Positions 29,819-34,868 of a stretch of 64,000 nucleotides of DNA are shown piece by piece; positions within the stretch are counted from its first letter, which is position 1; every line of letters starts with the position of its first letter. Where the stretch lies: NCBI RefSeq assembly GCF_016745505.1, contig NZ_JAERUC010000145.1, positions 1-64,000 on the forward strand, read 5' to 3'. The position numbers were made by a program, and so were the translations under genes. Below the pieces are notes generated by a model. The model was not told where the DNA came from. It ran no database searches and was given only the letters and a program-made list of their open reading frames with translations. The DNA comes from Streptomyces silvae. Lineage in GTDB: Bacteria; Actinomycetota; Actinomycetes; Streptomycetales; Streptomycetaceae.

Positions 29819-30874
29819 TCAGGCGGACTCGCGGTGCACCAGGGTCGGGTGGAAGACCACGGACGGAGCCGGACCGTCGCCCGGTTTGCCGATCTGCCTG
29901 AGGAGGAGCCGGGCCATCTCGGAGGCCATCTCCTCCACCGGCTGACGGACGGTCGTCAGCGGCGGATCGCACGCCACCGCCGCGTTGCTGTCGTCGAAAC
30001 CCACCACCGCCACGTCCGCCGGCACGTCCTTGCCCGCCCGCAGCAGCACGGGCAGCGCACCCAGCGCCATCAGGTCCGAGGCGATGAACACGGCGTCCAG
30101 ATCGGGCCGTTCCTTCAGCAGCTGGCGCATCGCCGAAGCCCCGCCCGACTGGGTGAAGTCCCCCTCGGCGGTCACCACGTCACCGACGCCGTGCTGCTCC
30201 AGCGCGTCCAGGAAGCCGGTCAGACGCACCTGCCCCGCCGGCATGTCCTGCGGGCCCGCGACCGTACCGATGCGCCGGCGTCCCAGGGCCGCCAGGTGGT
30301 CGGCCGCCATCTGGGCCCCGGCCCGCTGGTCCGCCTCGACATAGGTGAGCGGGGAGGGGCGCCGGGGGCGGCCGGCCAGCACGGCGGGCAGCCGGGTGTC
30401 GTGGATCAGCCCCGGCAGCGGGTCGTCGGCGTGCGAGGAGATCAGCACCACCCCGTCGACATGCCCCTGCCGCAGATACGACAGCAGCTGATCGCGGGAG
30501 CCCTCGTCGTCGGCGAGCATCAGCACCATCTGGATCCCGGCGGGACGCAGGACGTCCATCAGCCCGGCCACCACACGGCCGAAGTGCGGGTCGGAGAACA
30601 TCCGGCCGATGAACGGCTCGGAGACCGGGCGTCGTTCACGCTCGGACACCACCAGGGCGACCGAGTCCGTACGCCGGGTCACCAGCGAGCGCGCCGCACG
30701 GTTGGGGACGTACCCCGTGGTGGCGACCGCCTCCTCCACGACCCGGCGCAGGGCCGGGTCGACGGTGGTCGCGCCGTTGATCACACGGGACACGGTCGCC
30801 CGGGAGACGCCCGCCACCGCGGCCACGTCCTCCAAGGTGGCGGGGCGCAGGGGCGGCGATACGTCGGCAGTCAT
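29819..30874 (-). CDS. LacI-family transcriptional regulator
   Basis: The 351-residue protein has the LacI helix-turn-helix (TLEDVAAVAGVSRATVSRVING) and hinge helix (NRAARSLVTRRTD, with the minor-groove leucine), then a sugar-binding-like core. The ATG is 7 bases after the DUF305-like stop, so it may be the last gene of the DUF1996-DUF305-LacI unit. A TATAAA at 30881-30886, 6 bases before the ATG, could give an extra leaderless transcript, but its -35 is poor. It is the nearest candidate to bind the palindromes at 32591 and 32700, which have the central CpG typical of LacI operators. Confidence 0.9.
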   Translation of the reverse strand: MTADVSPPLRPATLEDVAAVAGVSRATVSRVINGATTVDPALRRVVEEAVATTGYVPNRAARSLVTRRTDSVALVVSERERRPVSEPFIGRMFSDPHFGRVVAGLMDVLRPAGIQMVLMLADDEGSRDQLLSYLRQGHVDGVVLISSHADDPLPGLIHDTRLPAVLAGRPRRPSPLTYVEADQRAGAQMAADHLAALGRRRIGTVAGPQDMPAGQVRLTGFLDALEQHGVGDVVTAEGDFTQSGGASAMRQLLKERPDLDAVFIASDLMALGALPVLLRAGKDVPADVAVVGFDDSNAAVACDPPLTTVRQPVEEMASEMARLLLRQIGKPGDGPAPSVVFHPTLVHRESA

Positions 30875-30881
30875 GCAGTCT

Positions 30882-31517
30882 TTATACCGGGTGATCCGAC
30901 GGGCACGCGAAGGGTTCCGGCACGTCAGCGGCCTTGCCCGCGCACAACGCCGCCAGGTCGGCCAGCTGTTCCCCGCGTGCGGTGACGAGTGCCCGCGCCC
31001 GGGCGGTGGCCTCCGCCCGGGTCCCCGCCGTCGTCTCGGAGCGGGAGACCTGCTCCGACTGGCGCAGATGGTCGCGGATCTGTGCGACCAGCAGGCGGTC
31101 GAAGGCGGACCCCTCGGCCGTACGGGCGTCGTCGAGGTCCGCGGCCGTGACCATGCCGGGCATGTCGTGTCCTTTGTGCAGGTCGGTGTCCGGCAGCCCC
31201 ATCCGGTCCCGCAGCTTCCGCAGCTCCGCCAGTTCGGTGGCCTGGGCGGTCCGCAGGCGCGCCGCCCAGGCCCGGAGCCGGGGGTCGGCCTTCTCCGCCG
31301 CGAGGCCGAGCAGGGTGACGGCCTGTTCGTCCATCGGGATCATCAACTGGAGCCAGGCGGCATCGGTCGGGTCCGCGACGGGGGAGGGCGCGGACGTCGT
31401 CGGCGGGAGAGCGGACGGGGAGGACGCGGTACGTGCCTCTTCCGTGGCCCCTCCCCGGGCGCACGACGTGAGGGCGGTGAGCAGGAGGAGCAGCGCTGCG
31501 GTGCGACGAGCCGGCAT
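30882..31517 (-). CDS. DUF305-like lipoprotein with lost histidine pairs
   Basis: The 211-residue protein has a lipoprotein signal (RRTAALLLLLTALTSC, lipobox LTSC). The mature part follows the DUF305 four-helix plan: LQLMIPMDEQAVTLLGLAAEKA, LRAWAARLRTAQATELAELRKLRDRMG, the HKGHDMPGM loop, and FDRLLVAQIRDHLRQSEQV. In typical DUF305 proteins the first and third helices carry HH metal pairs (MIPHHxxAI). Here they read MD and DH, while the M/H-rich loop remains. It may still bind copper through the loop. ATG 31517 follows AAGGA. The stop is TAA, uncommon in this window. Confidence 0.8.
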   Translation of the reverse strand: MPARRTAALLLLLTALTSCARGGATEEARTASSPSALPPTTSAPSPVADPTDAAWLQLMIPMDEQAVTLLGLAAEKADPRLRAWAARLRTAQATELAELRKLRDRMGLPDTDLHKGHDMPGMVTAADLDDARTAEGSAFDRLLVAQIRDHLRQSEQVSRSETTAGTRAEATARARALVTARGEQLADLAALCAGKAADVPEPFACPSDHPV

Positions 31518-31600
31518 CGGCGGGTGGTCCTTGCGCGAGGGCGCCTGCCCGGGGCACACGGCTCCGGACAGGCACCGGTGGACAGGGAAGTGACGATCGA

Positions 31601-32638: not shown

Positions 32639-32699
32639 TACTCCGCGTCAGTGCCTCAATTACCTGCCATTTGCACGGAGTTACTGACGGCAATCTTGG

Positions 32700-32711
32700 G
32701 AGAGCGCTCTC
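32700..32711. promoter_or_regulatory. LacI-type operator O2 upstream of ligA
   Basis: GAGAGCGCTCTC repeats the core of O1, 108 bp centre to centre, roughly ten helical turns. A possible rightward -35 (TTGCAC, 32671-32676) precedes it. Both operators could be held by one looped tetramer or two dimers. Confidence 0.7.
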
Positions 32712-32774
32712 TCAGTCATGGCCCCGAACGGGTGTCGGAAGGGATTGTCAGTGGTGGGCGGCAGGATGGTGGTC

Positions 32775-34868
32775 ATGACGACGAACTCAGCTGGAGTGCT
32801 CGCCGACACCGCCGCCTACGCGGCCGCGGTGGAAGAGGCCAAGCGTGCCGCCGCCGCGTATTACACCGCAGGTGAGAGCAGGCTCGACGACGACGCGTAC
32901 GACCGCCTCGTGCGCGGGATCGCGGCCTACGAGGAGGAGCACCCGCAGGAGGTGCTGGACGCCTCGCCGACCGGGAAGGTGGCGGGCGGGGCGGCATCGG
33001 GGGACGTGCCGCACACCGTCCCGATGCTCTCCCTGGACAACGTGTTCTCCGCCGAGCAGTTCGTCACGTGGACGGCTTCCGTGGAGCGGCGGATAGGCAG
33101 GCCCGTGGCGGCCTGGAGCGTGGAGCCCAAGCTCGACGGCCTGGCGGTCGCCGCGCGCTACGAGCGGGGCCGCCTCGACCGGCTGGTCACCCGGGGCGAC
33201 GGGACGGCCGGGGAGGACGTCTCGCACGCGATCGGTACGGTGCTGGGGCTGCCCGAGCGTCTCGGCGCCCCCGCCACCCTGGAGGTGCGCGGCGAGATCC
33301 TCATGACCCAGGAGCAGTTCGAGCGCGCCAACACGGTGCGCACGGAACACGGCGCCGCGCCCTTCGCCAATCCGCGCAACGGGGCCGCGGGCACCCTGCG
33401 GGCCAAGGACCGTGCGTACCGCGTGGAGATGACCTTCTTCGCGTACGGCGCGCTCGCGCTGCCCGGGTCCGGCGAGCTGACGGACACGCTGGCCGAGCTC
33501 CCGCACAGCGAGGTCCTGGAGTACGTCGCGGGCCTCGGTGTGCACACGGCGGCGGACACCGCGGTCGCCCCGCGCACCGTCACCACGGTGGAGGAGGTTC
33601 AGGCCGGGGTCGAGGACATCGCCGCCCTGCGCGCCACACTGCCGTTCGGGATCGACGGCATCGTCATCAAGGCGGACCTCGCGGCCGACCAGCGCGACGC
33701 GGGATCGGGGACGCGCGCACCGCGCTGGGCCATCGCCTACAAGCTCCCGGCCGTGGAGAAGGTCACCCGGCTGCTGGACGTCGAGTGGAACGTCGGCCGG
33801 ACCGGCATCATCGCGCCGCGCGCCGTGCTGGAGCCCGTCGAGATCGACGGATCCACCGTCGGCTACGCCACCCTGCACAACCCGGCCGACATCACCCGCC
33901 GCGATCTGCGCCTGGGCGACCACGTCATGGTCTACAAGGCGGGCGACATCATTCCCCGGATCGAGGCCCCGGTCGCGCATCTGCGGACGGGTGAGGAGCG
34001 GCCGGTCGCCTTCCCCGAGGTCTGCCCGCAGTGCGGGTCGGAGATCGACATGAGCGAGCAGCGCTGGCGCTGCACCCGGGGCCGCGACTGCCGTGTGGTC
34101 GCCTCCATCTCCTATGCCGCCGGCCGGGACCAGCTCGACATCGAAGGTCTCGGCGCCACCCGCGTCGTCCAGCTCGTCGACGCGGGTCTCGTGCGGGACT
34201 TCGCCGACCTCTTCACACTGGAGCGGGAGCAGCTGCTCGCCCTGGAGCGGATGGGGGAGACCTCCACCGACAATCTGCTGGCGGCCATCGAGACGGCCAG
34301 GACGCAGCCGCTCTCCCGCGTCTTCTGCGCCCTCGGTGTGCGGGGCACGGGGCGCTCCATGTCCCGGCGGATCGCCCGTCACTTCGCCTCGATGGACCGG
34401 ATCGTCGCCGCCGACGCGGAGGCGTTGCAGCAGGTGGACGGCATCGGGAAGGAGAAGGCGGCGGCGGTCGTCACGGAGCTGGAGGAGCTGGCGCCGCTGA
34501 TCGGCAAGCTGGTGGCCGCCGAGGTCAACATGACGGAGCCCGGTGCGACGCCGCCGCCCGAGCCCGGTGCCGAGCCGGAGGAGGGCGCCGAGGACGGGGC
34601 GGCCGGGCTGCCGCTCGCCGGTATGACGGTCGTGGTCACGGGCGCCATGACCGGGGCCCTGGAAAAGCTCTCGCGCAATCAGATGAACGAGCTGATCGAG
34701 CGGGCCGGCGGAAAGTCCTCCTCCAGCGTCTCCAAGCGCACGAGCCTGCTGGTCGCGGGGGAGAAGGCCGGCTCCAAGCGGAGCAAGGCCGAGGATCTCG
34801 GCGTCCGGATAGCCGCGCCCGAGGAATTCGCCGAGCTGGTCGAGACTTATCTGACCCCGGTGGCGTGA
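32775..34868 (+). CDS. ligA: NAD-dependent DNA ligase, probably a second LigA
   Basis: The 697-residue protein has the complete LigA plan: Ia domain ([20 protein letters not shown]), adenylation domain with EPKLDG (Lys119), the OB domain, a Cys4 zinc finger ([23 protein letters not shown]), a helix-hairpin-helix region and a C-terminal BRCT domain ([14 protein letters not shown] to the end). ATG 32775 has AGGATGG upstream; earlier in-frame ATGs are possible. Streptomycetes normally carry the essential ligA beside gatCBA; none is near here, so this may be an extra, regulated ligase. That is inference. Confidence 0.88.

Follow-up and report, generated by a model that had tools for sequence, protein, structure and literature searches.

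The question raised by this locus of Streptomyces silvae is which of two divergent transcription units is served by a pair of identical palindromes lying between them. The window, a stretch of 64,000 nucleotides (assembly GCF_016745505.1, contig NZ_JAERUC010000145.1, positions 1 to 64,000), contains genes for a DUF1996 protein, a DUF305 protein and a LacI-family regulator (LacI-W), which run away from a gene for an NAD+-dependent DNA ligase (ligA). The initial annotation had proposed joint sugar-type control of the exported protein and the ligase. Our reading, to which we give a probability of about 0.83, is that the two palindromes (O1 and O2) form a predicted operator pair of the DUF1996-DUF305-lacI operon and that ligA is a separate, presumably damage-driven neighbour; the apparent joint control of sugar and ligase is probably a matter of neighbourhood only. 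The features of the locus are:

29819..30874, minus strand, LacI-family regulator LacI-W (Pfam PF00356, PF13377)
30882..31517, minus strand, DUF305 protein, lipoprotein-like by eye (PF03713, E 3e-16)
31601..32536, minus strand, DUF1996 protein of 311 aa with a GTG start (PF09362, E 3e-51), probably secreted, the signal being judged by eye
32592..32603, no strand assigned, operator O1, GAGAGCGCTCTC, covering the position where transcription of the DUF1996 operon is expected to start
32610..32638, minus strand, promoter of the DUF1996 operon, TTGACA-N17-TACGTT, read from the sequence
32700..32711, no strand assigned, operator O2, GAGAGCGCTCTC, putative auxiliary operator of the DUF1996 promoter
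32745..32767, plus strand, RecA-NDp-like (PafBC-type) promoter element of ligA, TTGTCAGTG-N8-CAGGAT
32775..34868, plus strand, ligA, gene of an NAD+-dependent DNA ligase, apparently accessory (over cut-off with TIGR00575 and PRK07956)

The gene layout agrees with the initial annotation, and all four products have Pfam matches. Both palindromes, located between the divergent genes, are exact copies whose starts are 108 bp apart, as had been described; two were observed where 0.03 would be expected by chance (100 dinucleotide shuffles, none of which contained two). One of them had been placed on the DUF1996 start point, and O1 does cover the start expected from the TTGACA-N17-TACGTT promoter. 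This promoter had also been called near-perfect, which holds for its -35 box only: TTGACA (32633-32638) is perfect, but after a 17-nt spacer the -10 box TACGTT (32610-32615) is weak, with three of six positions matching TATAAT, and a simple promoter scan did not report the promoter.

The arrangement is conserved in the 27 rows with DUF1996, which represent at most 25 distinct genomes (L129, L130 and L131 were counted as the same genomes as L012, L014 and L015). The promoter pattern is kept in 26 rows. In every row O1 lies between -54 and -80 relative to the DUF1996 start, which was partly extrapolated; 26 copies are exact and the remaining one has a single mismatch. For O2 there are 23 exact copies, three with one mismatch and one with two. 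The spacing of O1 and O2 is 108-111 bp throughout (27/27).

If LacI bound at O2 repressed ligA, sugar and ligase expression would be coupled, a proposal that we consider very improbable. Of 90 regions upstream of ligA, 16 do contain an exact palindrome within 450 nt, and these are the 16 genomes with DUF1996 beside ligA. In two loci (L137 and L142) a third exact palindrome is found 52 bp past O2, nearer to ligA. The gap between O2 and the ligA promoter element was measured in 23 rows, all those that have DUF1996 next to ligA (24) except L017, where O2 has two mismatches. Fifteen rows have a gap of 33-34 bp, in line with coupling; the remaining eight have 21, 59, 60, 74, 74, 93, 94 and 114 bp, with no change in the O1-O2 spacing. 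The 15 equal gaps may reflect kinship, and we take the spacing as support rather than proof.

In some loci one of the partners is missing. Both sites remain, 109-111 bp apart, in L023, L136 and L145, whose stretches have no ligA. Five named loci (L013, L014, L016, L021 and L024) have ligA beside lacI-W without DUF1996, and four of these (L014, L016, L021 and L024) have no site, even with one mismatch allowed; L013 retains the DUF1996 promoter with O1 only. The ligA element is kept in all five, with its first base changed in L024. Scars of the DUF305 end, seen by eye in L013, L014, L016 and L021, indicate that DUF1996 was deleted there with the operators while ligA stayed; in L024 an unrelated gene lies in between. 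There is no overlap between O2 and the ligA promoter element. O2 was rejected as a ligA operator since the O1-O2 spacing is fixed, the ligA gap varies, and the site is lost with DUF1996 and not with ligA. The joint control put forward in the initial annotation finds no support in these observations, nor in the conserved RecA-NDp-like promoter that ligA has of its own, which is present too in genomes without a palindrome near ligA.

The ligA element was recognised by its likeness to the RecA-NDp consensus, which is TTGTCRGTG-N8-TAnnnT-like and lies close to the gene start. Its pattern has 14 sites in the genome compared to none for the control; with a spacer one base longer there are 6 matches compared to 3. 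Six of the 14 sites precede evident repair-type genes (recA, polA, a Y-family polymerase, an MGMT-like gene, a macrodomain protein and ligA). The element ends 7 nt before the ATG at 32775, which is the most likely ligA start because the same gap is found at polA, as it is at two other genes; starts at 32718 and 32769 are less likely on this measure. The transcript of ligA is probably leaderless. Of 101 ligA matches, 8 distant and 3 truncated ones were set aside, and the upstream regions of the other 90 (30 loci plus 60 fetched) were compared. The strict element occurs in 68 of them and a looser form in 73. Within 130 nt of ligA, TGTCAGTG occurs in 83 and TGTCAG in all 90, and the background of TGTCAGTG is 6 in 270 windows further upstream. 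In the distant ligA homologues (L207-L214), TGTCAGACC replaces TGTCAGTG before the start in seven of eight and is perhaps a diverged class of damage promoter.

The ligA product scores 592 bits with TIGR00575 (cut-off 444) and has adenylation, OB, HhH and BRCT domains (PF01653, PF03120, PF12826/PF14520 and PF00533). Another NAD+ ligase gene is present in the genome (G000:C144:79697-81787), and ligA, counting distant copies, was found at E 1e-150 in 98 of the 199 genus genomes sampled; on these grounds ligA looks like an accessory NAD+ ligase gene, here with a putative PafBC-type DNA-damage promoter. In Streptomyces a RecA-NDp has been described upstream of recA and of SCO6735, a macrodomain gene (PMC5087735), and the element here likewise stands before recA and a macrodomain gene. 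The action of PafBC is documented in mycobacteria (PMC6789036, PMC8223512, PMC11804915). RecA-NDp, Streptomyces and DNA ligase were not found together in the open-access literature searched.

The protein that would read the palindromes is likely to be LacI-W or a paralogue with the same recognition helix. LacI-W has a LacI helix-turn-helix (PF00356, residues 13-58) and a periplasmic-binding-like core (PF13377 and PF00532 over cut-off). Orthologues were taken as matches of at least 69% identity, with 10 candidates scored per genome, so that more distant copies may be missed, and were found in 27 of the 199 genus genomes. Besides the window there are 26, and 25 of their stretches (3-9 kb) hold an exact site near LacI-W, where the genus-wide density gives about 0.005 chance sites per 9 kb; the sole stretch without one, L130, has no DUF1996. 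It is this linkage that points to LacI-W or a same-helix paralogue, and it supports the earlier proposal of LacI-type operators with a repressor encoded in its own regulon. An exact site was also found in 13 of 18 named LacI-W loci, a set that shares at least three genomes with the 26 orthologues. In two named genomes the single site is at the gene immediately upstream of lacI-W. A site accompanies each of the eight most distant genus orthologues (69-75%); in six it lies upstream of lacI, in the other two downstream, and no ligA match was found in their stretches. One of these genomes, G123, has a DUF1996 gene some kilobases from lacI-W (L222, about 3522-4400, minus strand) with no ligA adjacent; it is 81% identical over residues 65-311 and is preceded by a TTGACA promoter and by a palindrome with two mismatches. 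Further stretches of five more of the eight genomes contained no DUF1996 gene.

A paralogue, LacI-B (G000:C203:28596-29645), is 58% identical to LacI-W and has the same recognition helix and hinge stretch. In this genome its start is closely preceded by a site with one mismatch, and in SirexAA-E an exact site lies about 32 nt upstream of the LacI-B gene. Site counts, uncorrected for kinship, average 10.5 in genomes with LacI-W (n = 27) and 4.0 in those without it (n = 172); since sites persist in the latter, another protein must read the motif there. It could be argued that only LacI-B or another LacI reads the operators while LacI-W binds something else. We think this unlikely in view of the local linkage of LacI-W to exact sites and the higher site counts in its presence; LacI-W and LacI-B may both read the motif.

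There are 10 exact GAGAGCGCTCTC sites in the 7.96 Mb genome compared to none for the reversed control pattern. The genome scan that had been called for in the initial annotation therefore adds eight sites to the pair:

L007, before a glycoside hydrolase (GH) family 16 enzyme that has a ricin lectin domain; a GH64 beta-1,3-glucanase comes next
L008, before a second GH64
L009, within the beginning of the coding sequence for a family-5 solute-binding protein, with ATP-binding cassette (ABC) genes; LacI and GH30 genes adjoin
L010, first site, before an alpha-lytic-protease-prodomain protein
L010, second site, before a second DUF1996 protein
L010, third site, before an F5/F8 protein with a weak glycosidase match
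L005, before an F5/F8 protein gene interrupted by the contig end
L006, before a short frame without a Pfam match, interrupted by the contig end

A fungal-wall beta-glucan theme is the best reading of these targets, from which we infer the inducer; the sites other than those at glucanase genes fit it to varying degrees. The two sites of the window most likely control the secreted protein together with fungal-wall-digesting enzymes, and the sugar-type control that the initial annotation had assigned to the exported DUF1996 protein gains support from the company of these other targets. The palindrome of L009 lies at 6245-6256, in the coding start of the solute-binding protein gene. The LacI gene adjoining it (LacI-G, L009:6414-7406, beside GH30) was considered as the regulator, as it stands next to a site and regulon-type genes. 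In at least 6 of 15 loci, however, another palindrome stands directly before its gene, namely ACCGGTTCCGGAACCGGT or a near variant (imperfect in the window's genome), and of 19 genomes, all of which have sites, 4 lack LacI-G at E 1e-60. With another palindrome at its own gene and site-bearing genomes that do not have it, LacI-G was rejected as the main reader of the motif, a role for which we hold it a most improbable candidate. Palindromes of the ACCGGTTCCGGAACCGGT type occur in L009 (7380-7700), L056, L058, L059, L065, L067 and L068 and are perhaps operators of a second glucan regulator. A 16-bp form of the palindrome at 6245-6256, CTGAGAGCGCTCTCAG, is present in 10 of the 15 LacI-G loci.

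The model that we favour is built on sequence, conservation and presence or absence across genomes, and from these we infer binding, inducer, repression and activation by PafBC. LacI-W, and probably also LacI-B, would repress the DUF1996-DUF305-lacI operon and the genes at about eight other sites, and would be released on binding an oligosaccharide, probably from fungal-wall beta-glucan. LacI bound at O1 would block the start point, and O2, about 108 bp upstream, would strengthen repression through cooperative binding or a loop. Transcription of ligA would run the opposite way, starting at a RecA-NDp-like promoter of its own that PafBC would switch on after DNA damage. Two testable claims take the place of joint sugar and ligase control: that DUF1996 belongs to a LacI regulon for beta-glucan, and that an accessory NAD+ ligase has a PafBC-type damage promoter.

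Several observations weigh against an operator pair confined to the DUF1996 operon and a damage-driven ligA. No more than 33 bp separate O2 from the ligA element downstream of it, and some influence of O2 on ligA is possible; since 15 of the 23 rows share a gap of 33-34 bp, the argument from spacing may in part reflect kinship. The -10 box of ligA, CAGGAT, is one base off the consensus, and eight of the 14 element sites have no evident repair gene (a transporter, a DtxR-type regulator, DUF4132, SUKH and unclear frames). The strict element is missing in 22 of the 90 ligA regions, seven of which are also without TGTCAGTG. For the regulator, five of the 18 named LacI-W loci (L014, L016, L021, L024 and L025) have no exact site, and the 172 genus genomes without a LacI-W orthologue still average 4.0 sites. 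Clear beta-1,3-glucanase-type genes directly follow only two of the eight other palindromes.

Palindromes of the GAGAGCGCTCTC type have been predicted computationally in other Actinobacteria (PMC3377646, from 2012; Streptomyces is not among its organisms). In that study, TGAGAGCGCTCTCA occurs in Catenulispora before a putative cellobiose ABC operon, before a second LacI gene that is accompanied by a GH5 gene, and before two GH16 putative endo-1,3-beta-glucanases. The same source gives GGAGAGCGCTCTCC near a LacI gene in Streptosporangium and AGAGAGCGCTCTCT in Thermobispora, before an ABC operon only. It also notes two identical palindromes upstream of one operon, but in contrast to the present locus its available text mentions neither DUF1996 nor a pair of fixed spacing between divergent genes. 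The CebR regulon of Streptomyces (PMC4898821) has the operator TGGGAGCGCTCCCA and cellulose-degrading targets. The system here is like it in having a LacI-family repressor, a palindrome with a GAGCGCTC core and polysaccharide enzymes, but differs in the half-site, which is GGGAGC for CebR and GAGAGC here. The sites read GAGAGCGCTCTC and not TGGGAGCGCTCCCA, which sets them apart from the CebR regulon, and no cellulase family was found among the scanned target genes. The open-access literature searched yielded no Streptomyces regulon of GAGAGCGCTCTC and no Streptomyces role for DUF1996, and the available portion of PMC12772271 contains nothing on this palindrome. Among the open-access papers listed for DUF1996 many are fungal, and PMC4738358 concerns vacuolar proteins in the fungal stress response.

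On balance we lean slightly towards a widespread Streptomyces beta-glucan regulon, marked by GAGAGCGCTCTC, with two paralogous self-linked LacI regulators, two DUF1996 genes and paired operators 108-164 bp apart at divergent promoters. If this is true, membership of the regulon would give DUF1996 a role in the attack on fungal walls. The locus also illustrates that operator spacing and gene presence across species can separate true targets from neighbours. Exact palindrome pairs 151-164 bp apart were seen near a large protein gene in L215, L216, L217 and L218; the pair in L216, the only one of the four scanned with Pfam, has as neighbours a GH81-type gene and, in divergent orientation, a gene for a sugar-binding protein.

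The NCBIfam scan named LacI-W and the ligase and gave no match for the DUF1996 and DUF305 proteins, both of which are matched by Pfam. By eye, and compared with Escherichia coli LacI, the C-terminus of LacI-W has no long tail, an observation that bears on possible looping by a LacI tetramer. The sequence TATAAAG lies at 30880-30886 on the minus strand, a few bases before the lacI-W start and overlapping the DUF305 stop. It is retained in L013, L014, L016 and L021, where DUF1996 and DUF305 are deleted, and on this retention lacI-W may have a promoter of its own.

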